Shown piece after piece: positions 1 to 53,560 of a DNA stretch of 53,560 bases (the first letter of the stretch is position 1; the number at the start of each line of letters is the position of its first letter). The position numbers and the translations under genes are program-made. Where the stretch lies: the IMG/VR virus record IMGVR_UViG_3300042922_001297, positions 1 through 53,560 of that record; one strand, 5' to 3'. Under the pieces are notes generated by a model. That model did no database searches, was not told the DNA's origin, and saw nothing but the letters and a program-made list of their open reading frames with translations. Origin of the DNA: a virus.

Positions 1-127
1 TCCCCGCGGGGAAGGCGCCGCCGTGGATGAGCTCCTCGGACACCGGCTCGTGGCCGTGGCGCATGAGGTGGATGCCGACCAGGTCGCCCTCGTCGTTGTA
101 CGAGACCAGCGGGATGATGTCGCCGGT
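1..127. repeat. Terminal direct repeat, left copy (circular assembly overlap)
   Basis: Bases 1-127 match 53434-53560 exactly, as far as can be read. An exact 127-base end overlap is what a k=127 assembler leaves on a circular contig. The reading frame of the giant minus-strand gene continues perfectly across the join, so the molecule is circular or circularly permuted with a unique length of 53,433 bp. A real 127-bp terminal redundancy cannot be excluded from sequence alone. Confidence 0.95.
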
Positions 128-3100
128 GCCGAACTCCTCGCCCGCCGTCGGCACGAGGCCGATCGTGCCGTCGGTCTGCGCCGCACGCAGCCGGTCGCGG
201 AGCTGGTCCAGCGCCCGGTTGAAGTCCGCCTCGGCCGCCCGGCCCTTCTCGCCCTCCTCGGCCGAGTCGTTCGGGAACAGCTCGAGGTTCGTGAAGCCCG
301 AGTGCTGCCACAGGTAGTTGCGGCCCTGCACGGACTCGAGCAGCGGGAGCAGCACGGTGATGACGCGCTGCCGCGCGCCGTCGGCGTCGCTGCCCGTCGC
401 CACGTTCTCCGGCGTGACGTAGTCGGCGTAGCGCGCGGTCTGCGCGATCTCGCGGACGAAGTAGTCCTCGAGCCCGCCGAGCCCGCCGTTGATGGACATG
501 ATCGAGTTCTCGTTGACCGGGTTGTGGTCGGACAGCGAGAGCATCACGCGGTTCTGCGGCGTGGTGTGCCGCGCGCCGCGCAGCGTGGAGTCGTACGCGA
601 TCTGGGCCCGCGAGCGCCCGACGGCGGGCGCCGGCTCGAAGCTGTAGCCCGTGTCGTCGACCGGCACGTAGTCCGCGCGCTGGTACAGCCAGGCCATCAT
701 CCGGCCGCGCAGCCCCGAGGCGAGCGCCGACGGCGGCACCGCGATCTTCGCGCCGAGCGCGGTCAGGCGCTGCAGCACCGGGCGCGCCTGCTCGAACAGC
801 TGGTCGTCGGTCGCGTCCTGGCTGGCCCGCAGGAACGTGTCGGCCGGGACGTACACCGTGTCGCCGAACGCCGCCTGCTCGAGCGCGTCCGTCGTGAGCT
901 CGCCCTCGACCGCGTTGGCCGCGCGCGAGCCGCGGTGCACGTACTCCCACGCCGTGGTCAGGTCGAACTGCGTGGTGGTGTTCGCCTGCGGCGGCGTCAT
1001 CATCTGCGCCGCCATCTGCGTCTGGCCGATCGCGGCGGCCTGCACCGCCTGCGTCACCTGGCTCGCGATGTTCGGCGAGGTCTGCATGCGCACGCGCACG
1101 TTCGTGTCCTGCTCGACCCAGCGCGGCGAGCCGAGCTTCTCGCGGTCGGCGTGCACGTCGCGGCGGTGCGCGCGGTACCCGGAGTAGAAGTCCCGACCCC
1201 CGGCCCCGCCGGGCTGCGTGCCGTCCTGGCCGTACGCGCGCGGCTTCGGCAGCGACAGGTTCACCAGCGCGGGCTCGCGCAGCAGGTCGCGGCTGGCCCA
1301 GCCCGTGACCTCCGCGCCGTCGCGCTCGACAGCGACCAGGCCGCCGAACATCCGGTCGGTCCACGCCTGCGCGGGGAACCGGGTGTACTGCGGCGCCTTC
1401 GCGACGTCGATGCTGAAGCCGAGGTCGCCGAACGGCGTGACGGTGGGCACCCGGGCCCCGAGCTCGCCCATGAGCGCGAGCACGTGCGGCAGCGGCAGGC
1501 CGACGACCTCGGCGTGCTGGCCGAGCGGCTGGCCCTGGGCCTGGCGCGCGATGACCTGCTCGGCGCTGAGCACCGTGGGCACGCCGTCCTCGACGTGGCG
1601 CACGACGTAGAGCAGGGACATCAGCTTGTAGATCGCGTTGTACTTCTCGGCGCCGAGCGGCTTGCCGTCGATCGGCTGCTTCAGCGCGAACTCGGTCAGC
1701 CGGCGCAGCATGCCCGCCATGTCGGACGTGCCGCCCGCGACGATCCCGCGGCGCACGGCCTCCGGCATCGTGGTGACCTGCTGCAGGGCGAACGTCAGCT
1801 TCTTGATCGAGCTCAGCGCGGTGTCGTACGCCGTCGGGATCACGCCGTCGAGCGCGAACAGCAGCGAGCCGAGGATCGACGGCTGCACGAACGCGCCGTC
1901 GGTCTGGCCGTTGATGCCGTCGAACCACGGGTTGTGGCTGTACGCGTCGTCGACGCCGCGCGTCGCGCTGATCGACTTCGTCTCCGGGTGGAAGAACGCG
2001 ATGTCGATCTGCGCGCCGGTGAGGTCGGCCCCGGCGTCGCGGGCGATGTTCTGCACGGCCGGGCCGAGCGTGCCCAGCGTGAGCACGCCGCCGTCGCCCG
2101 CCTGCACGCCGGTGCTCGCGGGGAGCAGCAGGCCCGAGGAGTACCGGGCGTTGGCCAGCACGGGCACGACGGTGTCGTCGGCGAGCCGCAGCGTCACGGA
2201 CTTCACGACGCGGCCCTCGAGCTGCGCGAGCGGGCGGGTGACCGGCGAGCCGTAGCCCGCGAGGTTGACGGTGATCGGCGCGTCCAGCACGTTGCCGCTG
2301 GCGACCGCGGAGACCAGCATCCCCGCGGGGACCGACGTCGTGCTCACCTCGTCGTCGCCCGGCACCAGGGTCCAGTCCTGCACCGTGGTCGCGCTGAGCA
2401 GCGCGAGCTCGTCCGGGTTCTTCCCGGCCATCGAGATGCCGGACTCCGCGGCCGAGGCCATCACGGCGCCGGTGGCGCTGTGCATGAGCGCCGGCATGAG
2501 CGCGTGCCACTGGCCGGTCGTCCCCGAGACCTCGCCGTCGACCGAGCGCCGCGGCGCCATGAACTTCAGCACGGCCTTTTCCGCGCGGAACTGCGAGGTG
2601 CGCGGGATGTCCGGGGCCATCTCGGTGACCAGGTCGATCTGCGCGTTGAGCAGCGGGCTGAGCGCGGTGCTCGGGTTGCGCAGCGCGTCGGGCGCGAAGA
2701 TGTCCAGCGCGGGGTCGACGAACGTCGGGTCCCAGTACGGCAGCTGCGCCTTCAGCGCGTCGTCCTTGCTCAGCGACGGGAACGCGCTGATCTCCTGGTC
2801 GCTCGTCGCCGCGATGCCGTAGTTCACGTGCATCGAGAAGGCGATGACCCCGCGGGCGATCTCCTCCCACTGGTCCTTCGTCAGGTCCGGGACGGTGATG
2901 TTCTCGTCGGGCCGGTACGGGACGGTGATCGTCTTCGTGCGCGGGTCGAGCGCGCGCTGGATGGAGGCCGCGGCCCACGGCACGGCGCGCGCGATGTCGC
3001 CGTGCGCGGCGGCGTGCGCGAGCAGCAGCCGCTGCACCGACGGGTCCTCGTAGTCGCGGTACGTGGTGAGCATGACGTCGAGCGGCGACGTGTAGTCGTC

Positions 3101-6100
3101 GGCCCGGTTGAGGTCCGCGGTGATCTTGCGCGCGATCGTCAGCTGCACCGGGTCGCCCGACGCCGCGGCGCTGCGCGAGAACTCCACGGCCCAGCGCGCG
3201 ACGAGCTCGTGCTGCACGTCGCGCAGCGGGCCCTCGGCGGTGAGCAGCCGCGAGACCATGTTGTCCCCGCCGTGCGCCCGCCGGCTCACGCGCGCCGCAC
3301 GCAGGATCGCCTGGTGCGCCAGGCTCACGCGCTCGCCCGTGCCGTCGGGCAGGTCGTCGCGGTCGCGCGGCGCGCCGGCCGGGTCGTCGTCCACCAGGGT
3401 GAGGTCGGCGAACACCCCGGCCTCGGTGCGCACGTGCAGGCCCTCGATCGTGCTCAGCGCCTGCAGCGCGTCCGCGATGTCCTCGAGGATCTCGACGGCC
3501 ATCTTCGCCCGCTGCGGGCTGTGCGGGTCGAGCACGCGACCGAGCGCGGCCTCGCGGATGTTCATCTGCTGCGCGAGCAGCACGGGGATCACCGGGGCGC
3601 CGCCGGGCGTGGTGACCTTCGCCTCGAGGATCATGAGCCGGCGCAGCTTCGAGGAGGTGCCGTTGCCGAACAGCGAGACCGCGGGGTCGGCCGTCAGCCC
3701 GGCCACGCCCTCGCCGACGACGGCCGTGCGCATGATCTGGCCGGTGTCCTCGTTGTAGTCCCACGCCGTCATGCCGAGCGCGCGCGCCGCGATCCCCGCG
3801 GTGCGCTCGTTGCCCAGCAGGTCCAGCGCCTGCGACGGCGTGATCGCCGCCCAGTCCACGACCGTGCCGTCGTTGAGCACGAGCGTGCGCCCGCCCTCCT
3901 GCGTGAGCAGGTGCGGCTGGCTGATCACGTCGGCGAGCGAGCCCGACGTCGCGCTGGCGACGAGCTGGCCGACGGCGGCGTCGAACACCGGCATCTGCGC
4001 GGCGATCGCCTTGCCGAGCGCGACGACGTTCTCCTTCGCGATGCCCTTGACGCCCATGTTGCCGACGATCTCGTTGATGTGGCTGGCCTGCTGGATCCAG
4101 ACGCTGGCGCCCACCATCGAGCCGAGGTCGCGGCTCTGGCCGTACCACGCGACGAAGTTCTCCCAGGCGCGGCGGTTCACCGAGCGAGGGTTGTCGCGCG
4201 CCTCGCGCAGCATCGACAGCTGCTCGCTGTTGTGCTCGAGGAACGACTTCGTGCTCTCCGTCGCGTTCAGCGCCGCGTTCGCGGCCGCCGCGGCGTCGCG
4301 CAGCGCGTCGCGCATCTCGGTGCCCTCGAGCGCCTCGGAGATCCCGGAGCCGTACCGGCTCGCCTCGACGACCGAGCGGTCGCGGTTCCACGCGATGTAC
4401 GGCGCGGAGCGCTCGTCACGGAAGCGCCAGTCCTCGTTGAGCGCGCCGATGAACGCGTCGATGCTGAGCTCCTCGTCGTAGAACAGCTCGTTGAACCGGG
4501 TGAGCGCGAGCTCGGCGTCGGTCGCGTTCTCCGCCGTCGGGTCGTTCGCCTGGAAGTCCAGGTGCAGCCGCAGCCGCAGCAGCCGGTCGTTGACCTGGTC
4601 CACGTTGATGCGCTTGCCGTTGTCGCCGAGCGCCGCGTACGCGTGGTCGATGGTGCCGCGCAGCAGCTTCATCTCGGCCACCCCGGAGCGGGGCTCGGCC
4701 AGCACGTCGTAGATCCACTGCGGGAACTCGACCTGGCTCAGCTGGCCGTCGAGCTCGCGCTGCACGACCCCGGCGCGCACGCCGCGCGACTCCATGATGG
4801 CGAGCACCTTGGCCGCGAGGTTCGGGTCGCCGGCCAGGGACGAGCGGGCCTGCTCCGGGGAGGTCATCGCCGCGCCGCGCGCGCGGGCCAGCGAGCGCAG
4901 CGAGTCGTGCATGTCGCGGAACGCCTGGCTGGCGCGACGGCTGGACGCCGTCAGCATGCCGGTCGGCTGCCCCTTGTTCTCGGTGAGCATCTGGTGCGCG
5001 CTCTCCATGACCGCCTCGACGAGCACGCGGTACGGCGAGGGCACCTCGTCGTCGCCCACCGGGTACGACGGGTGCGATCGCAGCGTGACCTCGAACTCGT
5101 GCCGGACGTCGGCGCGCATCTCGATCAGCGTGTCGCGCAGCCCGAGCACGGTGTAGCTGTTGATCGCCGCGCCCTGGTCGCCGAGGAAGGTGCCGATGTT
5201 CTCGGCGCCGAAGACCTCGACGAACGCCGTGCCGGCGGCTGCGTGGCGGCCCCCGGCCTCGTCGACGAAGTTCGCCGTCGTGAGCTGCTCGAGCCCGGAC
5301 AGCCGCGCGGCGAGCGTGTCGCTGCGGTTGATCAGCTCGGCGTTCTCGCGGCGCAGGTCCTGCAGGACGTCGTGCAGCATCGCCTGCAGCAGCGTGACGT
5401 GGCCGTCCCCGCGCTGCCCGCGCTCGCGGTCGACGTCGGCCACGCGCGCCGCGGCGAGCATGAGCATCGACTCCTCGACGCTGCGGGTGCCGAACTGCTT
5501 CTTGTGCTCGACGGCCAGCCGGCGCAGCCAGGAGCGCACCCGCATCTGCGCGGCGAGGCCCTCCATCATCGCGTCCTCGCCCGGGGCGGTGAGCCCGTCG
5601 TTGAGCGCGGTGAACGTCTGGATCAGCGCGGCCAGCTCGGACGCGCGCTCCTGCGGCTGGGTCTCGGTGGCCTCGCGCCGCGAGTTGTACTTCAGCACGG
5701 TCTCGACGCGGAACACGTCGTAGCCCTGCGCCGCGATCAGCGCGGTCAGCATCTCCGACGTGGCCGGGGCCAGGCGGCTGGAGTACCGCGGCATCTGCGG
5801 GTCGGTCGCCGGGAGCGGCGTGCGGAACTTCGGCGTACTCGGCGCGCGCAGCGCGGCCTGGGTCTGGAAGGTCCACAGCGCACGGTCGGCCGCGCGGCTG
5901 ATCGCCAGGAACGGGGAGTCGTCGATCTGCTGGCCGAGCTCGCGCATCTGCGGCGCGTACTCCCGGGCCAGCTTGGTCAGCAGGTCCGCGACGGCGGACG
6001 CGCGGCGGTCGGTCAGCCCGCGCACGGTGTCGGCGATCATCTGCTGCACGACGTCGTCGGGGATGGACGAGCGGGACAGGATCGCCCAGAGGCGGCGCGA

Positions 6101-8797
6101 CAGCGTGCGCTTCAGGGAGATGTACGCGGCGAACTCCGCGCTGCCCGGGGTGCGCTTCGCGCGGTACGCGAGCTCGACGATCCGCTCGGTGTACGGCTGG
6201 GCCGCGAGCATCGTGCCGTCGGACGTGAGCTGGCCGGCGCCCCAGCGCAGCTGGTCGTACGTGTCGACCGGCAGCAGCTGGCGGATCATGTTGCTGTTCC
6301 GGTCGCCGTCGTAGTCCCCGCCCTGCGGGACGATCGACTCGTCGCTCCACAGCGCGGTGACGTCGTTCCCGGCGTCGGTCAGGCGCGGGTCGATCTGCAG
6401 GCGACCGAGCTGCGGGGACCCCGCGCTGTTCAGCGGGTACCGCGAGATCAGCACCGACGCGCTGCGGCGCGCGCCGTAGTCGTCGGAGTACCAGGCCCCG
6501 CGCAGCGCGGCGTTCACACGCTGCAGGATGTCGCGGCGCTCGTCGCGCGTCGCCGCGGCGTCGAGCTGGGCGCGCGCGTTCTCGAGCATGGCGAGCAGCT
6601 GGGTGTCGGACTCGGCGATCTGCCGCGCCTGCTCGCGCTGGTCGGCCGTCGCGCTGAGCACGGTGCCCCCGGGGCCGCGCACCTCCTCGCTGCTCGCGAC
6701 CTTCGCCATCAGCGCCTGGCGCGCACGGACGTCGCGCAGCGCGGCGCCGAGCGACACGACGTAGTCCTGGGGGTCCCAGTCGCCGTTGCTCATCGTCTGC
6801 AGCCGGGACATCTCGACGGTGTCCTGGGAGTTCGCCGCCTCCTGGGCCGCGGCCTGCACGGCGACGTCGGTCGCGCGCTGCAGCTCGGGGATGTTGGCGG
6901 CCGCCACCGCGCCGGCCTCGCGCTCGACCCCGGCGACGACGGCCTCGAGCCGTCCCTGCTCGGCGTCGTTCGGCCGCGCGTTCTGCGCGCGCTCGCTGTC
7001 GGACATCGCCGACCACTGCTCGTCCGTCAGCGGTGCCTGCCCCCGGTCCATCCGGATCGCGTCGCTGCGCTCCTTCAGCCGGGCGCTCGCGGACTGCGCG
7101 TTCACGCCGATCGCGGTGCCCATGCCCGCGCCCATCGCGAAGCCCTGGCGCGCGGCCTCGAACAGCTCGTTGAAGGTCGGGGTCTCGCCGAACGCCGTCG
7201 CGCCGAGCGTCGCCTGCACGACCTCCTCCGCGCCTTCGCCGAAGCCGTTCACCGCGGCGGTCGCGATCGTGCGCCGGCCGGTCGTGAGGTTGTCGATGTA
7301 GCGCGCGGTCTCGCGGCGCAGCGCCTCGGGCGACTGCTCCACGCCCTGTCGCGCCAGGGACCGGCGCGCGAACAGCCGCGCGCTGAGACCGACGGCGGCC
7401 TCGGACGGGATGAGCGCCGTGAACCCGAGCCGCGCCTCGCGCGTGCCGTCGGCCGCGGTGGCGATGCGGTGCCCGCCGATCGCCTCGACCTCGCCGGCCC
7501 CGCGCCGGAACGGGGCGTTGACGACCCCACCCACGCGCTGCGCCGCGGCGGTCTGCGCGATGTCGATCCCCGCGCTGGCCGCCAGCTGGGCCATGCCCCC
7601 GGCGCCGATGTCCTCGTAGCGCCCGGAGTACGGGTTGAACGCGATGTTCCCCTCGCCTACCCCCGCCACGACCGAGGCGGTCTGGCCGAGCGCGGAGGAA
7701 CCCATGGTCGCCGTGAACGCAGCACGAGCGATGCGGCTGCCGAAGCCACCGATGCCGTCGACCAGGAGCGCCGCGGTGTCGATCGCGGTGGAGCCCAGAC
7801 CGCGCTCGGAGTTGCGGAAGCTGTCGACCTCATCCCCGGCACCGCCCTCGCTCGTCGCGTCGTAGATCCCTCGGTACAGGTTGGACGTGGGGTTCATCGA
7901 CCCCGAGGCGAACCCGGCGTACCCGCTGAACGCGTCGGCCAGACCGACGCTCTGGTGGCCGTCCGCCGTCGCGCGCTCGTACTGCTCCTGCGCCTGGGCC
8001 AGCTCGGTGTAGCGGGCGTCGCGGTTGAGGTACGCGCCGAACCCACCGACGATGCCGCCGACGATCGCACCGACCGCGGCACCTGCTGCGGTACCGGCAC
8101 CCGGGACGACCGAGCCGATCGTCGCACCGAGGCCGGCGCCGGTCGCGGCACCACCGGCGGCGCCCGTGCCGACGTTGGCGAACTGGGCGCCCTCGTTCGT
8201 GCTGAGGTACTGCGCCCGGTCCTTGACGTCGGACTCGAACTGCATGGCCGACAGGCCCTTGGCGTAGTTCTCGGTGTTCGCCTTCTCGACCTTGGCGATC
8301 TCCTCGTCGAGCGACCCCGCGCCCGTCAGCGGCTTGCCGCTCTCCGACTCGTACGCCTTGGCCCACACCTCGCGGGGCAGCACCATCCGGGCGAGCATCT
8401 CGTTGCCCTGGGTGCGGTCGACCCCGGCGTAGCCGTCGCGGAGGTTGCCCTGCTTGCGGCCGTTGAGGAACACGTCGCCGAAGCGGATGCCGTTGGCCTC
8501 GTCGTTGTAGACCGCCACGCCCGTCGCGTCGTCGCGAGTCCAGCGCTGGTCCATCCCGCGCTCGGCCTGCTCGCGGTCCTGCTGCGCGGCCGTCTCCCAG
8601 AACGTGGTGTCGAACGCGTTCTCGGTGCCCCGCAGGTTCTGCCCGGTGAGCGTGCTCCACGAGACCTGCTGCTGACCGAGCTGGTCCGGGGTGGCCGTCT
8701 CCCACCGGGTGCCGGTCCGCTGCGCCTGCGCCGCCTCCGGGGTTCCGAAGCTCTGCGGCGTGGCGGCCTGCTGGGACCACCGGGGGCTGACGGCCAT
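1..8797 (-). CDS. Giant virion protein, N-terminal part (residues 1-2932 of 4505); RNA-polymerase-like DYDGD motif
   Basis: This is the N-terminal 2932 codons of a 4505-residue protein that continues at 53433 after the circle is joined; the frame matches exactly. The start is ATG at 8797, behind AGTAGGAG and an in-frame TAG at 8809-8807. Seen in the translation: a Gln/Thr-rich N-terminus, a Gly/Ala zipper at about residues 210-258 that could insert in a membrane, long helical stretches, then SRYP (Arg about 786) followed by GGDYDGDRN with Asp 828, 830 and 832. R-x-P followed 35-45 residues later by D-x-D-G-D is the active-site signature of two-barrel RNA polymerases. No lysine-bearing partner barrel was recognised upstream. 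It is the first late gene, directly before portal, as expected for a protein packaged and injected with the DNA. It could instead be a polyvalent ejection protein with a chance motif. Confidence 0.9.
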   Translation of the reverse strand, partial: MAVSPRWSQQAATPQSFGTPEAAQAQRTGTRWETATPDQLGQQQVSWSTLTGQNLRGTENAFDTTFWETAAQQDREQAERGMDQRWTRDDATGVAVYNDEANGIRFGDVFLNGRKQGNLRDGYAGVDRTQGNEMLARMVLPREVWAKAYESESGKPLTGAGSLDEEIAKVEKANTENYAKGLSAMQFESDVKDRAQYLSTNEGAQFANVGTGAAGGAATGAGLGATIGSVVPGAGTAAGAAVGAIVGGIVGGFGAYLNRDARYTELAQAQEQYERATADGHQSVGLADAFSGYAGFASGSMNPTSNLYRGIYDATSEGGAGDEVDSFRNSERGLGSTAIDTAALLVDGIGGFGSRIARAAFTATMGSSALGQTASVVAGVGEGNIAFNPYSGRYEDIGAGGMAQLAASAGIDIAQTAAAQRVGGVVNAPFRRGAGEVEAIGGHRIATAADGTREARLGFTALIPSEAAVGLSARLFARRSLARQGVEQSPEALRRETARYIDNLTTGRRTIATAAVNGFGEGAEEVVQATLGATAFGETPTFNELFEAARQGFAMGAGMGTAIGVNAQSASARLKERSDAIRMDRGQAPLTDEQWSAMSDSERAQNARPNDAEQGRLEAVVAGVEREAGAVAAANIPELQRATDVAVQAAAQEAANSQDTVEMSRLQTMSNGDWDPQDYVVSLGAALRDVRARQALMAKVASSEEVRGPGGTVLSATADQREQARQIAESDTQLLAMLENARAQLDAAATRDERRDILQRVNAALRGAWYSDDYGARRSASVLISRYPLNSAGSPQLGRLQIDPRLTDAGNDVTALWSDESIVPQGGDYDGDRNSNMIRQLLPVDTYDQLRWGAGQLTSDGTMLAAQPYTERIVELAYRAKRTPGSAEFAAYISLKRTLSRRLWAILSRSSIPDDVVQQMIADTVRGLTDRRASAVADLLTKLAREYAPQMRELGQQIDDSPFLAISRAADRALWTFQTQAALRAPSTPKFRTPLPATDPQMPRYSSRLAPATSEMLTALIAAQGYDVFRVETVLKYNSRREATETQPQERASELAALIQTFTALNDGLTAPGEDAMMEGLAAQMRVRSWLRRLAVEHKKQFGTRSVEESMLMLAAARVADVDRERGQRGDGHVTLLQAMLHDVLQDLRRENAELINRSDTLAARLSGLEQLTTANFVDEAGGRHAAAGTAFVEVFGAENIGTFLGDQGAAINSYTVLGLRDTLIEMRADVRHEFEVTLRSHPSYPVGDDEVPSPYRVLVEAVMESAHQMLTENKGQPTGMLTASSRRASQAFRDMHDSLRSLARARGAAMTSPEQARSSLAGDPNLAAKVLAIMESRGVRAGVVQRELDGQLSQVEFPQWIYDVLAEPRSGVAEMKLLRGTIDHAYAALGDNGKRINVDQVNDRLLRLRLHLDFQANDPTAENATDAELALTRFNELFYDEELSIDAFIGALNEDWRFRDERSAPYIAWNRDRSVVEASRYGSGISEALEGTEMRDALRDAAAAANAALNATESTKSFLEHNSEQLSMLREARDNPRSVNRRAWENFVAWYGQSRDLGSMVGASVWIQQASHINEIVGNMGVKGIAKENVVALGKAIAAQMPVFDAAVGQLVASATSGSLADVISQPHLLTQEGGRTLVLNDGTVVDWAAITPSQALDLLGNERTAGIAARALGMTAWDYNEDTGQIMRTAVVGEGVAGLTADPAVSLFGNGTSSKLRRLMILEAKVTTPGGAPVIPVLLAQQMNIREAALGRVLDPHSPQRAKMAVEILEDIADALQALSTIEGLHVRTEAGVFADLTLVDDDPAGAPRDRDDLPDGTGERVSLAHQAILRAARVSRRAHGGDNMVSRLLTAEGPLRDVQHELVARWAVEFSRSAAASGDPVQLTIARKITADLNRADDYTSPLDVMLTTYRDYEDPSVQRLLLAHAAAHGDIARAVPWAAASIQRALDPRTKTITVPYRPDENITVPDLTKDQWEEIARGVIAFSMHVNYGIAATSDQEISAFPSLSKDDALKAQLPYWDPTFVDPALDIFAPDALRNPSTALSPLLNAQIDLVTEMAPDIPRTSQFRAEKAVLKFMAPRRSVDGEVSGTTGQWHALMPALMHSATGAVMASAAESGISMAGKNPDELALLSATTVQDWTLVPGDDEVSTTSVPAGMLVSAVASGNVLDAPITVNLAGYGSPVTRPLAQLEGRVVKSVTLRLADDTVVPVLANARYSSGLLLPASTGVQAGDGGVLTLGTLGPAVQNIARDAGADLTGAQIDIAFFHPETKSISATRGVDDAYSHNPWFDGINGQTDGAFVQPSILGSLLFALDGVIPTAYDTALSSIKKLTFALQQVTTMPEAVRRGIVAGGTSDMAGMLRRLTEFALKQPIDGKPLGAEKYNAIYKLMSLLYVVRHVEDGVPTVLSAEQVIARQAQGQPLGQHAEVVGLPLPHVLALMGELGARVPTVTPFGDLGFSIDVAKAPQYTRFPAQAWTDRMFGGLVAVERDGAEVTGWASRDLLREPALVNLSLPKPRAYGQDGTQPGGAGGRDFYSGYRAHRRDVHADREKLGSPRWVEQDTNVRVRMQTSPNIASQVTQAVQAAAIGQTQMAAQMMTPPQANTTTQFDLTTAWEYVHRGSRAANAVEGELTTDALEQAAFGDTVYVPADTFLRASQDATDDQLFEQARPVLQRLTALGAKIAVPPSALASGLRGRMMAWLYQRADYVPVDDTGYSFEPAPAVGRSRAQIAYDSTLRGARHTTPQNRVMLSLSDHNPVNENSIMSINGGLGGLEDYFVREIAQTARYADYVTPENVATGSDADGARQRVITVLLPLLESVQGRNYLWQHSGFTNLELFPNDSAEEGEKGRAAEADFNRALDQLRDRLRAAQTDGTIGLVPTAGEEFGTGDIIPLVSYNDEGDLVGIHLMRHGHEPVSEELIHGGAFPAG

Positions 8798-8836
8798 CTG
8801 CTGCTCCTACTGCTCGTGGTCCAAGGCTTCGAGCAG

Positions 8837-8851
8837 ATCCTACGTCACGTA
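8837..8851 (-). promoter_or_regulatory. Possible late promoter -10 with an overlapping palindrome
   Basis: On the minus strand TAGGAT (8842-8837) resembles an actinobacterial -10 box about 40 bp before the giant gene start. It abuts the palindrome TACGTcACGTA (8841-8851), which could be an operator. No convincing -35 lies 17 bp upstream, so this is a weak call. Confidence 0.25.
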
Positions 8852-9071
8852 TGCCCCTGTACGCCCCGAAGATCCGATCAGCGAGGTATCGGACCCGATC
8901 GTCCTCGGAGGCGCTCACGGCGGCGCCTGGCTACGGATCTGGCGGTCTGAGACCGAGGTGCGGGAGATTCGGTCGTCGAGGTCGTCTCGGGAGCCGCAAC
9001 GGGGATGACCTGCACCGATGTCTCTCCTGGAACGCCGTTTCCGGAGAAAAACTTGTGCGTACTTCCAAATA

Positions 9072-9077
9072 TATAAT
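9072..9077 (+). promoter_or_regulatory. Candidate early promoter -10 (TATAAT)
   Basis: A perfect TATAAT lies in the AT-rich island, 164 bp before the first early gene. A TTGTGC at 9053-9058 is too close (13 bp spacer) to be a standard -35. If the box is used, it depends on an activator or on the surrounding AT-rich DNA. Confidence 0.35.
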
Positions 9078-9105
9078 AGAAACAAAAGAAACAACTACTA
9101 CCCCC

Positions 9106-9127
9106 TATACATATATATATATGTATA
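9106..9127. repeat. Perfect 22-bp AT palindrome
   Basis: The segment TATACATATAT followed by its reverse complement ATATATGTATA makes a perfect palindrome in the AT-rich island. It could extrude as a cruciform, bind a dimeric regulator or ease DNA melting. Which of these applies is unknown. Confidence 0.7.
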
Positions 9128-9240
9128 TATATAGGTATCCATTCATAGGGAGTTCATTGATGCATTAGGTGCAATTGTTTTTGTGTTTCATTTTTGGTTT
9201 ATCCAGTTTACATCCATCTCTACGCAGCCAGGAGATTCTC

Positions 9241-9890: not shown

Positions 9891-9922
9891 GATTCATTTT
9901 TGGGGAGAGTAGAGAGAAGAGA

Positions 9923-9990
9923 GGGGGGAGAGAGGGAGAGGGGGGAGAGAGGGAGAGGGGGGAGAGAGGGAGAGGGGGGAGAGAGGGAGA
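9923..9990 (+). repeat. Four tandem 17-bp all-purine repeats
   Basis: Four exact copies of GGGGGGAGAGAGGGAGA begin at 9923, 9940, 9957 and 9974, inside an almost pure purine run from about 9900 to 10010. Such tracts can form triplex (H-DNA) or be bound by initiator proteins. It lies 280 bp before the helicase gene. Open frames across it encode only Gly/Arg/Glu repeats and are not credible genes. Confidence 0.9.
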
Positions 9991-10158
9991 GGGAGGGGAG
10001 AGGTAGGAGGGAGGGCAACCGACTGACGCGACTGGCCCCGCTCCGAGGCCGGCACCGACCGCCTCAGAAAGACGACTGCCCCGGTCCACTTCACCCGTCT
10101 AGGTTTCGACCTCACGAACGCAACGCTCTGACCTGCACAAACACGGAGCAGTGCAAGT

Positions 10159-22463: not shown

Positions 22464-22978
22464 GCGAGGGCGTGACGACGATCGTCGGCATCGACCCCGG
22501 GCTGGTGCACAACGGCGTGGTCGCCGTCGAGTTCTACCCCGGGCTGAAGCAGATCGAGGTGAAGCACGCCGCGATCGCGGGTAACCAGGAGCCGGCGGAC
22601 ATCTCGCTCGCCATCCTGCAGTGGGTGGCCGACGAGGTCGGCTGGCCCGAGGTGGACCAGACGTACGTCGAGAGCTACCGCGAGCGCGGGCAGGCGTACG
22701 CCACCAGCCCGAAGATGCGGGCCATCCTCGCCGAGCTGAGGCGTGACCTGCCCGAGGCCAAGATCCTGGACAACACCGGGATCAAGAAGGTGGTGCGGCC
22801 CAAGCTGCTCGACCTGCTGGGGCTGCGGTCGTTCCCGACCACGCACCACCAGGACCTGCAGAGCGCGGCGCGCATCCTCGTGCTCGGCATGCTGAAGGAC
22901 GAGGAGCTCAACGCGCTGCTCGCCGACGTCGTGCTCGCGTACATCAGCGGCACGCCGTGGCAGGTGGCGCATGTCTAG
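22460..22978 (+). CDS. RuvC-like Holliday-junction resolvase
   Basis: A 172-residue protein starting at GTG 22460 (GTGA overlap). VGIDPGLVHNG carries the first catalytic Asp (D12) of the RNase H fold, YVESYRERGQ the Glu (E71), and HHQDLQSAARIL the C-terminal His/Asp pair (H130, D132). The family cuts four-way junctions or branched replication intermediates before packaging. The length is typical of RuvC. It sits in the recombination and replication block after the polymerase. Confidence 0.88.
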   Translation: MSEGVTTIVGIDPGLVHNGVVAVEFYPGLKQIEVKHAAIAGNQEPADISLAILQWVADEVGWPEVDQTYVESYRERGQAYATSPKMRAILAELRRDLPEAKILDNTGIKKVVRPKLLDLLGLRSFPTTHHQDLQSAARILVLGMLKDEELNALLADVVLAYISGTPWQVAHV

Positions 22979-23210
22979 GAAGCCGCACCAGCGCACGGGC
23001 AAGGGCCTGGCCCGGGCGAAGCACGCCGGCACGCGCGTGCGCAGCTGGCGCACCCAGGTGCGGGTGGAGCAGAAGCTGCGGCTGCGCTCGGAGTTCGAGC
23101 CCACGCTCGACGAGGGGCTCGAGGATCTCGACGGGTGCAGCTGCCGCTGCGCCCATCTCTACGAGCCCGAGTGCGACGAGCTGTGCTCGCCGTACGGAGG
23201 TCAGCCATGA
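22971..23210 (+). CDS. Basic protein with C-terminal Cys cluster
   Basis: A 79-residue protein overlapping the resolvase gene by 8 bp. The first half is highly basic (RKPHQRTGKGLARAKHAGTR); the end holds five Cys (CSCRC, then two more) and could bind zinc. This combination suggests nucleic-acid binding, but no family is recognised. Confidence 0.75.
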   Translation: MSRKPHQRTGKGLARAKHAGTRVRSWRTQVRVEQKLRLRSEFEPTLDEGLEDLDGCSCRCAHLYEPECDELCSPYGGQP

Positions 23211-23458
23211 GCATCATCGGACGCATCGTGCGCGAGGACATCGCGCGCGGGAACAGGAGAGACAGCATGTACTCGAGCACCGAGGTCAAGGAGGCCGACG
23301 TCCAGGTCGGCGACTGGGCCCAGCACCGCGGCGGGCTGGACGGCCGCAAGGTCGTGGCCGTGGACCACGAGCGCGGCATGATCCAGATCGACCTCGTCGG
23401 CACGACGTCGGTGCCGCTGCCGATGGAGGCGTACACCTTCCGGCGGATCACGCCGTGA
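23207..23458 (+). CDS. Small SH3/KOW-like protein
   Basis: An 83-residue protein. ATG 23207 overlaps the previous stop and follows GGAGG. A second in-frame ATG at 23267 has its own good site (AGGAGAG), so a shorter 63-residue form is possible. The C-terminal half (VQVGDWAQHRGGLDGRKVVA, then strands) looks like a small beta-barrel of the KOW/SH3 type. Function unknown. Confidence 0.75.
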   Translation: MSIIGRIVREDIARGNRRDSMYSSTEVKEADVQVGDWAQHRGGLDGRKVVAVDHERGMIQIDLVGTTSVPLPMEAYTFRRITP

Positions 23459-23811
23459 CCGTGCACCTCAACACGGTGAAGTCGTCCGACCTCCACACCA
23501 GCAGGCTGTGGATCCCGGACGAGCCGCCGCCGTGCGTGGTGGACCCGGACGCATGGACCGAGCAGGCCCACCTGGGGCAGGGACGTCAGCCGGCGAACCC
23601 GCTGCGGGTGCTGCGCGAGCGCACCGAGCTCGCGCGCAAGGAGTGTCAGCTGCTGTGCCCGTTCCAGGTCGAGTGCCTGGAGGCAGCGATGGCAGAGGAG
23701 GGCGGACGCAAGGCGGAGAAGCGCTACGGCATCCGCGGCGGCCTCCTCCCCATCGAGCGGGAGACCCTGTACAAGCGACGCAAGAGAGAGAGCGAGAGGG
23801 CAGCAGCATGA
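23455..23811 (+). CDS. WhiB-family transcription factor
   Basis: A 118-residue protein starting at a GTGA overlap. C27 after PPP, then C64, C68 and C74 would bind an iron-sulphur cluster. YGIRGGLLPIER (91-102) is the WhiB G-x-x-G-G turn, and a basic tail (KRRKRESER) contacts DNA. WhiB proteins occur only in Actinobacteria and their phages, and usually act by binding the principal sigma factor. The central pair is C-x3-C here, where C-x2-C is usual, an oddity worth checking. It is a candidate regulator of host transcription or of the early-to-late switch. Confidence 0.88.
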   Translation: MTVHLNTVKSSDLHTSRLWIPDEPPPCVVDPDAWTEQAHLGQGRQPANPLRVLRERTELARKECQLLCPFQVECLEAAMAEEGGRKAEKRYGIRGGLLPIERETLYKRRKRESERAAA

Positions 23812-46754: not shown

Positions 46755-48722
46755 CTATGCGGCCGCCACCGGCGAAACCGGGCGAACAGGAACAGACTGT
46801 ACAGGCGCAGGTGCGCTGTCCATCACACCTAGCTTTTCGAGCAGCATGCCCTGGGACTCCGTCATGGTCTTCATCTGCTCCTGCAGCTGAAGAACTGCTG
46901 CAGCCATGGCCTCGTTGTTGGCGACCATAGGCTCGACCAGGGAGTTGATCCCGGCCTCGAGCCGGTTGACCTTCTCGTCCTGGGCCTGCACCTGCGAGGT
47001 GTTGCCCTCGAGGAACCGGGTCTTCAGCTGGTCGGCGTGCGCCGAGCCGGACAGCTCGATCGTCTTGGCGAGGATGAACTGCATCGTCTGCGCGGCGTTC
47101 GCCAGCATGTTCTGGTCGCCCGTCTGCGCGAGCGCCGGCATGGCCTGGCTGAGCGGGACGAAGATCTCCTGCAGGATGCGCAGCTGCTTCTCGTCCTCCA
47201 TCTCGACGAGCGACCCCGGCACGCAGCGCACGTGGTAGACCGTGGCCATCTCGCTCATGTCGACGTCGAGCACGCCGTCGGCGTCGAAGCTCTCGGTCGG
47301 CATCCCCGCGGCGATGAGCGCGCGCCGCGCGTCCGCGGTCGGCGTGATCTTCTTGACGCCCGACATCTCGGCGAAGTACAGCGTGAGGGCGTACGAGCAG
47401 TACAGCGAGAAGAAGTACTCCACGGCCTTCTGGTAGTTGTTGGTCGTGATGTCGACCATCTTCTCCTGAGCCTCGACGCCCTGCGGCGTCGCGCTCATCC
47501 CGTTGCCCGAGCTCGCCGCCATCTGCTGGTCGGCCGCGCCGACGAGGTTCACCATGCTGCCGAGGTTCTGCTGGCTGATGGCGCCGTACTGCAGCAGCGT
47601 CTGGGTGTTCACCTCGAACGGCTCGATCTTGGCGTTCGGGTTCGGGATCGGGACGTACTTCCCCGGGCTCATGTTGGGGATGCCGTTGAGCCCGGTGCCG
47701 TAGCCGAGCAGCGTCGGGTTGATGTTCTTGTACCAGAGCTTCATGGCTCCGTTGAGCATCAGGTCCTGGAACTCCTGACGTCCGTAGACGAGGGAGATCT
47801 GGGACTTGCCGAGCGGCTGCTGGCTGTCCTTCTCGAGCACGAGCACCTGCACGGGGTGTCGCTTGAGCGGGTCCTTGTTCTTCTCGATGCGCAGCAGCAT
47901 CTTCGTGTTCGCGTCGAACGTGAGGAACGGGTCGCCCGTCATCGAGTACCACGTGACGATCTCGTAGCCGTCGGGGATCGTGTGGTGCTTCGCGTCCTGG
48001 TGCGACACGCTCTCGCGCTGGCGCGACGGAGGGTTGTTCGAGCACAGCTTCTTCAGCGCGGCGATGTCCCAGCCCGGCTGCTGGTGGCGGATCAGCTGGT
48101 GCACCTCGCCCTTGGTGAGGTACCGACGGACGAAGACGACCGGAGCCTTGCGCGCGTCCTTGACCCCGGGCTCGGGGAAGAAGTCGCGGTAGTGGATGAC
48201 GTCGTAGTTCATCGCCCAGCTCTTGTCCGGCTTCTGCACGAGCACGGGGGTGACCGCCTCGAAGCCGAGCGTGAACGCGCTCATCACCGAGGAGAACAGG
48301 CTCTGCTGCATCTCGTTGGAGTTGAGGTCGTCGCCGATGATCTTCGACTTCAGGATGTACCGCGCGAGGATGCCCTTCGGCTCCTTGTCGTCGAACTCGC
48401 AGACCACGTCGACGTTCGGCGTGTTCTGCACGACGTTGCGGGCCACGCGCCGGACCATGCCCGCGATCTCCCCGGAGGAGACGTTGGGCAGGTCCGGCTT
48501 GCGGGAGACGACCTCGGCGTCGGCCATCGTCTCGTACTTCCAGTAGTTCTGGACCCGGCCCTCGTGCTCGCGCTTGTAGTGCTCGAAGAGCGACCACAGC
48601 GAAGTCGCCTGCAGCGACAGCCCGCGGAACTCGATGCACCCGGTGCGTGCGTCCTCCGACCGGCTGACGTACCAGTCGTCGAACTCGGTGACCGGCTCGT
48701 GAGGTGCCTTCGCTACTGCCAC
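46755..48722 (-). CDS. Portal protein
   Basis: A 655-residue portal of the short-tailed-phage type: N-terminal helical region, a wing-like mixed region (LVQKPDKSWAMNYDVIHYRDFFPEPG), a stem/crown region (NLGSMVNLVGAADQQMAAS, MVDITTNNYQKAVEYFFSLY) and a C-terminal coiled coil (AQDEKVNRLEAGINSLVEPM), followed by a Pro/Val tail. It forms the 12-fold DNA gate. The ATG lies 10 bp inside the end of the giant gene. Confidence 0.85.
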   Translation of the reverse strand: MAVAKAPHEPVTEFDDWYVSRSEDARTGCIEFRGLSLQATSLWSLFEHYKREHEGRVQNYWKYETMADAEVVSRKPDLPNVSSGEIAGMVRRVARNVVQNTPNVDVVCEFDDKEPKGILARYILKSKIIGDDLNSNEMQQSLFSSVMSAFTLGFEAVTPVLVQKPDKSWAMNYDVIHYRDFFPEPGVKDARKAPVVFVRRYLTKGEVHQLIRHQQPGWDIAALKKLCSNNPPSRQRESVSHQDAKHHTIPDGYEIVTWYSMTGDPFLTFDANTKMLLRIEKNKDPLKRHPVQVLVLEKDSQQPLGKSQISLVYGRQEFQDLMLNGAMKLWYKNINPTLLGYGTGLNGIPNMSPGKYVPIPNPNAKIEPFEVNTQTLLQYGAISQQNLGSMVNLVGAADQQMAASSGNGMSATPQGVEAQEKMVDITTNNYQKAVEYFFSLYCSYALTLYFAEMSGVKKITPTADARRALIAAGMPTESFDADGVLDVDMSEMATVYHVRCVPGSLVEMEDEKQLRILQEIFVPLSQAMPALAQTGDQNMLANAAQTMQFILAKTIELSGSAHADQLKTRFLEGNTSQVQAQDEKVNRLEAGINSLVEPMVANNEAMAAAVLQLQEQMKTMTESQGMLLEKLGVMDSAPAPVQSVPVRPVSPVAAA

Positions 48723-51700
48723 TGGTTCAGCCTTCCTCGCTGCGACGAGAACCTCTCGCGCCTGATCGTCGCCCGTCGGATGATCGGGTTGCTGGTGTTG
48801 ATGCTGTACAGATCGTCAGCATATGGGCTCATGATCCTGGTTAGGTCATTGAGGCGCTGAGGGCCACCGCCGTAGTCGGTGATGTAGCTCGAGCCGCCGT
48901 ACCCGCCGCGCGAGTAGCCGCCGGACCGGCGCCCGTACCCGCGGCCGAAGTTCCGCCAGCCGCCGTAGTCGTAGCCGTTCTGGCCGGTGCCGTCGGTGAT
49001 GTCGTCGAGCTGCTCGCTGATCTTCTCGAGCGCGTCGGTGATCGACTCGCCGATCTCCTCCGCCGTCGGGGTCTCCCACGTCGGGTCGACCCGCACCAGG
49101 CCGCGCATGCCGGTGTTCACCTGGCGCACGTCGTCGACCGAGTTCAGCAGCTGGTCGACGCCGAGGTTCCCGGTCTGGCCGGCGTGGTACATCTCCGCCG
49201 GCAGGATGCCGATGGACGACAGGACCGAGCGCTGCAGCCCCGTGGCGATCGGGCGCCCGTTCGGGCCCACGACGTACGTCGTGTTCAGCTGCATGTACTC
49301 CTGCTTGCCGTACCGCGGGATCGCGTCCGACCACAGGATGTCGGCCAGCCCGAGCACCTCGGGGTCGCCGATCGCCTGGCCGTAGTAGTCGCGCTTCGCG
49401 TTGTTCAGCGAGTCCGTCTTGGAGTAGCCCGCGTCGATGTACTTCTGGGTCATCTCGGCGAGGAAGTCCTCCTGGATCTTCACGCGCATCTCATCCGGGA
49501 TGTAGACGCCCTGCAGCGCGGGGCTGTCCAGGCGCAGCGTGCCGAGGTGGATGCCCCGCACGATGCCCTCGGCCCCGGTCGCGGTGAGCTCCTCGCGGCC
49601 CGTCTCGTTGTTGATCACCGAGACCAGCAGCTGTTCGGCCTCGTCCTGCGTGATCTCCTCGGAGTTCACCTCGCGGAGCTTGACCGGCTGGTTGTACCGG
49701 ATGAACGTCGAGTCGCGCATGATCGCGGCGAGCGCGTAGGCCAGGAACGGACGGCTCTCGCCCATGCTGTGCAGCAGCGCGTCGATGTCCTGCCGCCCGA
49801 CGTACCCCGAGCGCTGCTCGCCGGTGATCGGGTCGATGAAGTCGTCGAGCACGTCCGTCTCGCGCGGCGTGCCGAACGCACCCTCGCGCTGGATGGTCGC
49901 GTCGCTGTCCAGCAGCGGCCGCTTGTACGGGTCGCGGTCCCACTCGTCCGCGCCCTGGTACAGCATCGAGGCGAACGCGCTCTCGAACAGCATCGACTCG
50001 AGCGTGCCCACCGCGGTGACCAGGCCCTTGTACGCCAGCGACGTGGACTCGACGCCGTCCTCCATGGCCTGCGCCTCGGCCGCCTCGGACAGCTCGTTCG
50101 CCATGTTCCAGGCGTTGAGGATCGAGTCGACGTTCAGCAGCGGCATGTTGCCGATCGCGTCGGTGAAGCCCCAGTAGATCTGGCGGAAGTCGCCGGTCTC
50201 CTTGAACCGCGCGACGCCCATCAGCGGGGAGACGAACAGCTTCAGCGTCCAGGACGGGACGCCCATCCCCGCGGGCAGCAGGTCGGAGAACCACGCCTCC
50301 GCGTTGCGGAAGTCGTTCTCGAGCGACAGCGGGTCCTGCGCGACCGGCGCCTTCTGGTACCGGCGCAGCTTGTTCAGCAGCTTCATCTCGTCGTCGTCCC
50401 CGCCGCCGAAGCCCGCGCTCGAGATGATCGAGCCGGCCAGGAACAGCTGGGTGTGCGAGACGCCGGAGCGGATGATCGCGCGCGTCAGGTCGAACGAGTC
50501 CTCGATCCGGGCCTGGTCGCTGACCTCGGGGTCCATGCCCGCGTCGTCGCCGCGCATGCGGTCGAGCAGGCCGCCCGGCCGCTTCTGCCGGTCGGACAGG
50601 ATCGTGGTGAGGATCGCGTGCGGCGCCTGCAGGCCGAGCATGTTGATGATCGTGTTCGACCGGAACCGGAAGAACAGGGTCGGGAACCGCAGCAGCAGGA
50701 CGCCGAGGGTGTTGGTCCCCGGGCCGCCGGAGGCGATCACGCGCTCGGTCGCGCGGCGCACGATGCGCGCCATCAGGTTGTCCTGCAGACCGCGCGCGTA
50801 CTCGACGCGGGCGTACCCGTGGTTCACGGCGTCCGGGCTGATCTCGGCCAGCTGCTCGGGCGCCGGGCTCGAGAGGATGTCCAGGAACTGCTCGACCGGG
50901 ACGTGCTCCTCGAGCGGCATCTTCGAGATCGAGTCCCAGCTCGCCTCCATGAAGCGGCGCGCGATGGTCTTCGACTTCGTGCCCCACGTCGGGTCGGACG
51001 CCATGGCCGAGACGAACGTGGCCGCGCCCTGCAGGCGCTGCTCGAGCCGCGTCGTCGCGCCGGCCTGCTGGAAGTTCGTGTTCTCGTAGACCATCCGGTA
51101 GAACTCCGGGCTGGACGCGAGCGCCTCCTCCGCGCGCCGCCACTGCGCGCGCTGCTGCGGCGTGAAGCCGCGCGCCCCGAGGTTCTCCCCGGCCAGGAAC
51201 GAGACCGCGCGCTCCTGTCCGCCGCGCACGGCGAGCTCGATGAACGCCCCGATCCACAGGCCCGGGTTGAGGAAGGTCTTCAGCAGGATCCACTGCTGCG
51301 CGAACCGCATGACGACGTTGGTGCGCGCGAGCTCCTCGCGGACCTGGGCGCCGGCGATCGCCTCCGAGCGAGGCGACTGCCGCTGCCGGTGGTTGTAGCC
51401 GCGCTTCGACTCCCACGTCGCCATGCGCTTCTCGATGATCGAGCGCGCCTCCTGCGGCAGGTCCTCGGTCACCCAGTCCTGGCGCTCGAGGTCGAGCCGC
51501 GACAGCCGCGCCTCGCCCTGCTGCACGATCGGGTTCGAGAACTCGTTGCGCAGCACGGGGCTCGCGACGAGCAGGCCCGACTTCGTGCGCGCGATGCTCA
51601 GCATCCCCGCGGTGACCGAGTTCGTCGCGACCGGCAGGCCGTCGACGTCCTTGCGGTAGCCGTACAGGATGCCGTCGACCATGTTCGACACGGCCATGTA

Positions 51701-53560
51701 GCCGCGCAGCTGCGGGTCGGAGGAGAACGTCTCGGCCAGCACGACCTCGACCCACTCGTCCCACTTGCCGACCGGGCGCTTCGTGCCGTCCGACTTGATC
51801 AGCGGGTACCCGCCGGTGCGCAGCGCCTGCAGCGCGTCGCGCGAGACCGCGTTCACCGCGCCGCCGCGCGTCGGCAGCAGGCCCTGGCGCGCGTTGCGGT
51901 TGACCAGCGAGAGCGTGGTCATGGCGTCGCGGTACGTCATGTGCTCGGTGGTGCGGTCGGCCGCGGCCGGGCGACCGGCGGCCGTCCGCAGGATCTCGTG
52001 CAGGAAGATCGACTGCGACTTCGGCAGGTGCAGGCGGCGCAGCGTGTCGTCGAACAGCCGCTGGTACGCCCGCATCCCCGCCTCGCGCTTCGCCTTGCTG
52101 GCGTCGGCGAACCAGGACTCGGTGTCGATGACGACCTTCAGCGCGCGCGACGCGGGCAGCGCCTCGGTGAAGATGTGCTCCTGCTCGGCCGCGTTGAGCG
52201 CGAGGTCGTCGTCGTGCCGCGTGCGGTGCGGGGACTTCGGCGCACCGCGGTTGAAGGCCAGGCTCTTCCGGCCCTCGACCCCGCGGGCCATGAACCGGTT
52301 CTCGCCGAACACGGTCTGCCCCGCGGTGAACGGCCGGGTCATGAGCCCGGTCGAGCCGAGGCCGGCGAACAGCATCGCGTTGGCCGTCTCGCTGCTGTTG
52401 CCGCGCTGCTTGCGGTCCAGCGCCTGGTCGCTGAGCGCGTCGTTGTGGTCGGTGTTGCGGATCTCCGCGAACGCCAGCATGTCCTCGATCTCGAGCACCT
52501 TGCCGTTGCGCTCGACGTACCGCGTCCAGGTGAACGCCGGGTCGTCGTTCAGCTCCCAGCGGTCCACGCCGTTCCAGCCGCCAGCCTGCGCGGCCTTGGT
52601 CGCCATGCGCTGGTTGATCTGGTCGACGAACGCCGTGCGCGCCGGGTGCCCGGTGGGCAGCTGGTGCAGCAGCGTGGTGAACACGGGGTGCATCGTGTGC
52701 GAGCGGGACTGCCCGTTCAGCAGGCCCGGCGCGCCGAGCACCTCGGCCAGCTGGCCGCCGGTCGTGAGCGCCGCGAGCACGAGCCGCAGCATCGTGACGT
52801 CTGCGAGCTCCGCGCCGACGAGCTCGTCGGAGAACCGAGGCGCCTCGTCGCCCATCAGCTCCACGAGCTGACGCTGGAGCAGCTCCTGGAGCTGGGCCTG
52901 CAGCGGGCCCGTGTTGCGCGAGACGAGCTGGCTCGGGTCGACCAGGCCCTGCTGCGCGTCGCGCGCGAACCGCGTGAGCACGTCGGTCACCTTCGCGCTG
53001 GCCTCGCTCCACGCGTTCGGGTCGGCCGGGTCGTACGTCACGCCGGTCAGCGCGCGCACCAGGTACGGCATCGTGTCGAAGCCGACCGCCTCGGCGATCT
53101 TCCCCGGGGTGTTCCACCACCACTGGTCGGACGTCTTGGCCGTCGGGCTCGCGATGTCCCCGGCCCCGAGCACGGGCATCGAGCCCACGACCGGGATCGT
53201 CGGCATCGGCAGCCCGGCCGCCGGCTCGGGCCCGGTGGTCCACTTCATGCCGGTCCCGACCTCGAAGACCTTCGAGCCGAGGTCGGACAGGCTGACGCGG
53301 ATCTTGGCGATGAAGCCCTGCAGGCCGATGCGGTCCGGGCCCGAGACGATCTCGCCGCGGTGCGTCGTGTGCTTCGGGTCGACCGTCGCGAGGTCGATCG
53401 TCAGGCGCGCGCCCTGGACGCCGAGCGCCTCGTTCCCCGCGGGGAAGGCGCCGCCGTGGATGAGCTCCTCGGACACCGGCTCGTGGCCGTGGCGCATGAG
53501 GTGGATGCCGACCAGGTCGCCCTCGTCGTTGTACGAGACCAGCGGGATGATGTCGCCGGT
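48713..53560 (-). CDS. Giant virion protein, C-terminal part (residues 2891-4505)
   Basis: This is the continuation of the giant protein that starts at 8797; 42 codons at the top are repeated in the terminal overlap. The stop at 48713 lies 10 bp inside the portal gene that starts at 48722, so the two are translationally coupled. The region is mostly helical, with hydrophobic segments such as LLKTFLNPGLWIGAFIELAV. That segment recalls the conserved domains found in large phage polyvalent proteins (a family impression, not proven). Near the C-terminus is a Gly/Arg/Tyr-rich stretch (GRGYGRRSGGYSRGGYGG) that looks disordered and nucleic-acid binding, followed by a basic tail. No protease, transglycosylase or other enzyme motif was recognised here. 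Any separate N-terminus drawn at 53497 is an artefact of the linear cut. Confidence 0.9.
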   Translation of the reverse strand, partial: TGDIIPLVSYNDEGDLVGIHLMRHGHEPVSEELIHGGAFPAGNEALGVQGARLTIDLATVDPKHTTHRGEIVSGPDRIGLQGFIAKIRVSLSDLGSKVFEVGTGMKWTTGPEPAAGLPMPTIPVVGSMPVLGAGDIASPTAKTSDQWWWNTPGKIAEAVGFDTMPYLVRALTGVTYDPADPNAWSEASAKVTDVLTRFARDAQQGLVDPSQLVSRNTGPLQAQLQELLQRQLVELMGDEAPRFSDELVGAELADVTMLRLVLAALTTGGQLAEVLGAPGLLNGQSRSHTMHPVFTTLLHQLPTGHPARTAFVDQINQRMATKAAQAGGWNGVDRWELNDDPAFTWTRYVERNGKVLEIEDMLAFAEIRNTDHNDALSDQALDRKQRGNSSETANAMLFAGLGSTGLMTRPFTAGQTVFGENRFMARGVEGRKSLAFNRGAPKSPHRTRHDDDLALNAAEQEHIFTEALPASRALKVVIDTESWFADASKAKREAGMRAYQRLFDDTLRRLHLPKSQSIFLHEILRTAAGRPAAADRTTEHMTYRDAMTTLSLVNRNARQGLLPTRGGAVNAVSRDALQALRTGGYPLIKSDGTKRPVGKWDEWVEVVLAETFSSDPQLRGYMAVSNMVDGILYGYRKDVDGLPVATNSVTAGMLSIARTKSGLLVASPVLRNEFSNPIVQQGEARLSRLDLERQDWVTEDLPQEARSIIEKRMATWESKRGYNHRQRQSPRSEAIAGAQVREELARTNVVMRFAQQWILLKTFLNPGLWIGAFIELAVRGGQERAVSFLAGENLGARGFTPQQRAQWRRAEEALASSPEFYRMVYENTNFQQAGATTRLEQRLQGAATFVSAMASDPTWGTKSKTIARRFMEASWDSISKMPLEEHVPVEQFLDILSSPAPEQLAEISPDAVNHGYARVEYARGLQDNLMARIVRRATERVIASGGPGTNTLGVLLLRFPTLFFRFRSNTIINMLGLQAPHAILTTILSDRQKRPGGLLDRMRGDDAGMDPEVSDQARIEDSFDLTRAIIRSGVSHTQLFLAGSIISSAGFGGGDDDEMKLLNKLRRYQKAPVAQDPLSLENDFRNAEAWFSDLLPAGMGVPSWTLKLFVSPLMGVARFKETGDFRQIYWGFTDAIGNMPLLNVDSILNAWNMANELSEAAEAQAMEDGVESTSLAYKGLVTAVGTLESMLFESAFASMLYQGADEWDRDPYKRPLLDSDATIQREGAFGTPRETDVLDDFIDPITGEQRSGYVGRQDIDALLHSMGESRPFLAYALAAIMRDSTFIRYNQPVKLREVNSEEITQDEAEQLLVSVINNETGREELTATGAEGIVRGIHLGTLRLDSPALQGVYIPDEMRVKIQEDFLAEMTQKYIDAGYSKTDSLNNAKRDYYGQAIGDPEVLGLADILWSDAIPRYGKQEYMQLNTTYVVGPNGRPIATGLQRSVLSSIGILPAEMYHAGQTGNLGVDQLLNSVDDVRQVNTGMRGLVRVDPTWETPTAEEIGESITDALEKISEQLDDITDGTGQNGYDYGGWRNFGRGYGRRSGGYSRGGYGGSSYITDYGGGPQRLNDLTRIMSPYADDLYSINTSNPIIRRATIRRERFSSQRGRLNQWQ
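53434..53560. repeat. Terminal direct repeat, right copy
   Basis: Exact copy of bases 1-127. One copy should be removed when the circle is closed. It codes for residues 2891-2932 of the giant protein. Confidence 0.95.

Follow-up and report, generated by a model that had tools for sequence, protein, structure and literature searches.

Among the genes without explanation in cultured actinobacteriophages, one of the largest occupies a quarter of the genome, and the question raised by its homologue in the virus contig IMGVR_UViG_3300042922_001297 (53,560 nucleotides, the whole of which is called the window here) is what its product does. The initial annotation described a 4505-residue protein, encoded next to portal, that resembles a two-barrel RNA polymerase (RNAP). 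Its length and its position beside portal were both confirmed. The two ends of the contig are identical over 127 bp, 53434-53560 duplicating 1-127; the contig is circular and measures 53,433 bp once closed. On the closed circle a single uninterrupted minus-strand open reading frame runs from 8797 through 1/53433 to 48713 and specifies 4,505 amino acids, as follows.

1..8797, minus strand: giant gene, residues 1-2932, with an N-terminal Gly-rich segment, the DPBB-A/beta'-like core and a linker (open reading frame).
48713..53433, minus strand: giant gene, residues 2933-4505, past the circle closure (open reading frame and 127-bp end overlap).
46755..48722, minus strand: portal protein, directly 3' of the giant gene (55% identity to the annotated portal of phage Burro).
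45012..46748, minus strand: major capsid protein homologue (69% identical to Burro gp29, the likely capsid protein; PMC7302621).

A 2,975-aa open frame also lies antisense to the giant gene (23-8950, plus strand); it is probably an artefact of codon usage in a genome of 69% GC.

A translated search with residues 501-1000 matched 44 phage records, 43 from Microbacterium phages and one from an Arthrobacter phage, and in the seven records examined the match fell within a gene of ~13.3-13.5 kb immediately before portal. These relatives, from short-tailed phages of soil actinobacteria, are the giant ("13-kb gene") proteins of the Microbacterium clusters EK and EM, of Burro, and of Arthrobacter phages. 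The window protein resembles the EK/EM/Burro ~13.5-kb gene product in length and in its place before portal, and they are direct homologues; that product, however, has been published with unknown function, and the window protein is just ~18-26% identical to it. Phage records searched at the nucleotide level with 5 kb of the giant gene gave no match. Among viral contigs, a single-sequence search returned no relatives, while profile searches returned 19 loci and another 26; the closest relative, L028, is 50% identical over the aligned protein. A 2020 survey left the role of the giant gene in EK, EM and Burro unclear and found no similarity to the N4 virion polymerase (PMC7302621), and later papers still give it no function, its role being elusive as of 2026 (PMC12022796, PMC13069448). 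Subcluster EK1 alone comprises 57 phages (PMC13014141). Some public records call homologues tape measure protein (L005 13393-26877, Arete gp27; L006 13564-26868, MissAmericana gp30; NC_048860, PQ184795).

The motifs and the predicted barrel that bear on a polymerase reading lie in the N-terminal fifth of the chain:

6434..6442, minus strand: R786-x-P788 motif, invariant in 25/25 proteins, followed by S794 at the spacing of jumbo-phage beta' (RNPxxxxxS).
6302..6316, minus strand: D828-Y-D-G-D832, the predicted Mg-binding triad, with D828, D830, G831 and D832 invariant in 25/25.
6248..6820, minus strand: predicted DPBB-A, residues ~660-850 (AlphaFold model, PDB fold search, profile match and hhalign).

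The initial annotation had placed an R-x-P at about residue 786 and a DYDGD at 828-832, 42 residues apart, and both stand. Because DxDGD is expected by chance 0.11 times per shuffled copy of the giant protein, a lone motif in one sequence is weak evidence. When 25 proteins sharing a median pairwise identity of 23% are aligned, however, DxDGD occupies one column in all 25, with Y, F, W, N, H or T at the variable position. Just 38 of the 2,825 well-covered columns between residues 600 and 3900 are invariant, and they include R786, P788, S794, D828, D830, G831 and D832. At the RNPxxxxxS spacing, R356, P358 and S364 are invariant in A10. Across the relatives, the motif is not a product of chance.

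Profile comparisons place this region with beta'. When a profile of residues 700-920 was run against 177,635 PDB sequences, the first three matches were AR9 nvRNAP beta' (E=0.01 twice) and PhiKZ nvRNAP (0.06), aligned on the motif as RNPxxSxGS...LSGDYDGD. In the opposite direction, a query of 50 aa from AR9 beta' found 143 phage records; those listed were almost all from large-genome phages and many were annotated as RNAP, and in the listed Microbacterium records the match fell on the motif within the giant gene, though with E about 4. Alignment by hhalign of residues 560-1250 with seven jumbo-phage beta' proteins gave P=1.6e-6 (prob 90%), compared with a prob of 0.1% for a control region, and over all 4,505 columns of the protein the jumbo beta' profile was best placed at 755-834.

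Structure prediction agreed. A template-free AlphaFold (AF2) model of residues 560-1250 had a mean pLDDT of 74, with the barrel region mostly at 80-95 and strands at ~663-669, 678-681, 781-787, 796-802, 814-818 and 833-836. When this model was searched against PDB folds, 50/50 listed matches were beta'/Rpb1 (best E=4e-3, prob 0.99). The E-values are modest and the global TM-scores low (0.2-0.25), the pattern expected when a common core sits in differing surroundings. We conclude that the beta'-like part is homologous to RNAP beta', which these computations show, and that two marks of a two-barrel RNAP, a DPBB-A carrying DxDGD and an R-x-P upstream of it, are both present. Either of two outcomes had been named in advance as refuting the annotation, a predicted structure without a double-psi barrel at 780-840 or loss of the three Asp in homologues. 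Neither was seen: residues 780-840 are modelled within a beta'-like double-psi barrel, and the Asp triad is never lost.

A two-barrel enzyme also needs a beta-like barrel with catalytic lysines, and the acknowledged weakness of the annotation was that none had been recognised upstream. That statement was right, since the beta-like part lies ~2,160 residues downstream of the motif, and the weakness is thereby resolved. No conserved Lys precedes residue 786 (no column in 1-785 reaches 70% Lys), and after it five columns are at least 90% Lys: 1584, 2332, 2987, 2996 and 3032. The downstream features are these:

2..160, minus strand: predicted first part of DPBB-B, residues ~2880-2932, with FxxGDxIPL resembling beta GAEVxxGDILVGK (weak hhalign match and conservation).
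53096..53433, minus strand: predicted second part of DPBB-B, residues ~2933-3045 (L028 fold search and hhalign).
53270..53272, minus strand: K2987, putatively corresponding to E. coli beta K1065 (Lys in 24/24).
53243..53245, minus strand: K2996, putatively corresponding to E. coli beta K1073 (Lys in 24/24).
53135..53137, minus strand: K3032, third invariant Lys of the DPBB-B region (Lys in 24/24).

The spacing from K2987 to K2996 is 8 or 9 in all relatives, and in most of them the two form GxK-x(5-7)-GxK (GAKMVDEHGTK in L020), comparable to GDK1065MAGRHGNK1073 of E. coli beta. Taken alone, the hhalign matches are not significant (residues 2864-2912 against E. coli beta 859-896, P=0.34; residues 2985-3042 against 1063-1116, P=0.59); the two best placements of the beta profile on the whole protein are nonetheless colinear and set K2987/K2996 on K1065/K1073. 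This E. coli-type profile is narrow, consisting almost entirely of gamma-proteobacterial sequences. Profiles of the DPBB-B region retrieved nothing from the PDB. In the window the contig ends interrupt the gene here, so we modelled residues ~2080-3240 of L028 instead. The model, made without templates (pLDDT 69), had beta/Rpb2 as all of its top 13 PDB matches, with E-values of 0.03-0.4 (best E=0.033, prob 0.75), and among BFVD viral structures RNA polymerases came directly after its own family. A DPBB-B with two conserved Lys thus appears to be present, on moderate evidence that is weaker than that for DPBB-A; that the two barrels face each other is an inference.

Based on these analyses, the giant protein is very probably a virion-borne, single-chain, DNA-dependent two-barrel (cellular-type) RNAP fused to an ejection/structural protein, although no activity data exist. 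The homology to beta', the invariance of the catalytic residues and the beta-like fold downstream are shown by computation; that the chain is catalytic, packaged, injected and active in early transcription is inferred. Residues ~660-850 would form DPBB-A with the DxDGD metal site and residues ~2880-3045 DPBB-B with the two catalytic lysines, the two jointly making one active site in a chain ordered beta' then beta with ~2,100 residues between. The chain would be packaged in the virion and, by analogy to gp96 of phage P23-45, would enter the cell along with the DNA and transcribe early genes ahead of the redirection of host RNA polymerase. The two-barrel RNAP-like reading of the initial annotation is therefore supported as to polymerase homology, whereas its further proposal of a packaged, injected, early-transcribing enzyme stays an inference. 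The sole published support for packaging is a ~250-kDa protein band in Burro virions that is consistent with the giant gene product and was assigned to it (PMC7302621); Burro is a relative and a different phage from the window, and the text on the band gives no mass-spectrometry identification. The claim that no other RNA polymerase gene is present was checked only in part: Pfam Rpb1_2 and Rpb2_6 gave no match in the window although positive controls worked, but both also miss the divergent core of the giant protein, and the phage-type RNA_pol Pfam gave no match in a search without a positive control.

The nearest functional precedent is P23-45 gp96, which is likewise giant, virion-borne and built on a two-barrel RNAP core with a DFDGD. 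It was first recognised by its motif and serves as a virion RNAP transcribing pre-early genes. It is, however, the tape measure of a long-tailed Thermus phage, whereas the window protein family occurs in short-tailed phages and has the order A then B. Single-chain two-barrel RNAPs (P23-45 gp64/gp96, gp66, QDE-1) carry DPBB-B N-terminal to DPBB-A (PMC10770324), and the window protein does not meet this rule, its order being reversed (~660-850, then ~2880-3045). Among these, crAss-like phi14:2 gp66, a virion RNAP, and eukaryotic QDE-1 are single-chain two-barrel enzymes, as the window protein is inferred to be, but have B then A with a connector; neither is among the listed fold matches of either model. 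In the DPBB-A motif (RNPxxxxxS ... DxDGD) the nearest sequence match is AR9/PhiKZ nvRNAP beta', yet the multisubunit RNAPs of jumbo phages are made of 4-5 separate polypeptides, in contrast to the window protein, a single chain with long additional stretches encoded by a 53-kb genome. The N4 virion RNAP is likewise large and packaged in a short-tailed phage, but has a T7-like fold with catalytic motifs unrelated to those of the window protein.

Several other readings must be weighed against a single-chain polymerase. The protein could be mainly structural or act in ejection, with an inherited RNAP core that is inactive or only binds DNA during ejection. Its gene adjoins portal, conservation is highest in its C-terminal ~600 residues, the Burro product is virion-associated and some records name homologues tape measure protein; against this, the Asp triad, the RxP and both Lys are invariant within a fast-evolving region, as selection for catalysis predicts, and we regard this reading as unlikely. 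Nor do we favour the view that only the beta'-like barrel is real, the second being supplied by another protein or absent and the downstream region spurious. The DPBB-B matches are individually weak, but an independent region with a template-free fold has cognate beta/Rpb2 as its top 13 matches, and its invariant Lys stand at beta-like spacing.

Less plausible still is a tape-measure-like protein whose DxDGD arose by chance or is an acidic motif of the Toprim kind. The motif is expected 0.11 times per shuffled protein of equal length, and Toprim domains use DxD too; this explanation is contradicted by the 25/25 conservation and by profile and fold matches specific to beta'. A tape measure protein proper, which sets the length of a long tail, was also rejected, as the relatives carrying the giant gene are podoviruses without a long tail and the gene precedes portal and capsid. 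A giant virion RNA polymerase of the N4 type (T7-like fold) would have comparable biology, the N4 enzyme also being a very large protein in the virion of a short-tailed phage, but it can be practically ruled out: the published analysis found no such similarity (PMC7302621), the giant protein has no RNA_pol Pfam match, and its fold matches point to beta'/beta.

The polymerase reading assigns a mechanism to the giant gene, and the enzyme would be, as far as the open-access literature searched shows, the first two-barrel virion RNAP in phages of Actinobacteria. The initial annotation's statement that none had been described there held within that literature, where the family appears as a giant gene without a known role. 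A bolder reading, which we consider likely, is that EK, EM, Burro and their uncultured relatives carry an unrecognised lineage of virion RNAPs, each a single chain running from beta' to beta with a ~2,100-residue gap and delivered by short-tailed phages. With its barrels in reversed order, the protein is relevant to the evolutionary relation between single-chain polymerases and the two-subunit enzyme, whichever of them gave rise to the other. Phages of Microbacterium foliorum are available as laboratory isolates, in which the polymerase reading can be tested directly.

Searches of the giant protein against Pfam and PHROGs gave no polymerase match, a point against the polymerase reading, and outside the two barrels only weak PHROG matches, to residues ~190-258. 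This segment (8024-8230, minus strand) is Gly/Ala-rich and hydrophobic, its matches are to PHROGs of tail-lysin/tape-measure type, and it may be a membrane-inserting stretch. The C-terminal ~600 residues (~3900-4505; 48713-50500, minus strand), the best-conserved portion of the protein and without assigned function, are inferred to be the likely virion-anchoring part.

Elsewhere in the window, 22957-23811 on the plus strand encodes a protein with a WhiB-like region at its C-terminus, and WhiB-family genes are annotated in EK relatives too. With a phage-encoded WhiB-like regulator, host RNA polymerase is probably used later in infection, although this has not been shown. A purine-only repeat tract of GGGGGAGAGAGGGAGAG units lies in non-coding DNA at 9906-10003, close to where the early genes begin. 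A further element lies between the giant gene and the divergent early genes:

9046..9145 (core 9079-9109 on the minus strand): single-copy, conserved AT-rich element made up of an AT run, G5-7 and a T-rich tract, located ~300 bp ahead of the giant gene.

The exact core occurs once in the window. A hairpin common to all phages was rejected for this element, as single-strand folds differ between phages. The arrangement of AT run, G5-7 and T-rich tract is kept in 17/17 phages and contigs examined, though their proteins are mostly 20-30% identical, and the element is a candidate regulatory site whose function is inferred: it could be a promoter for the giant-gene polymerase, an origin or a packaging site.
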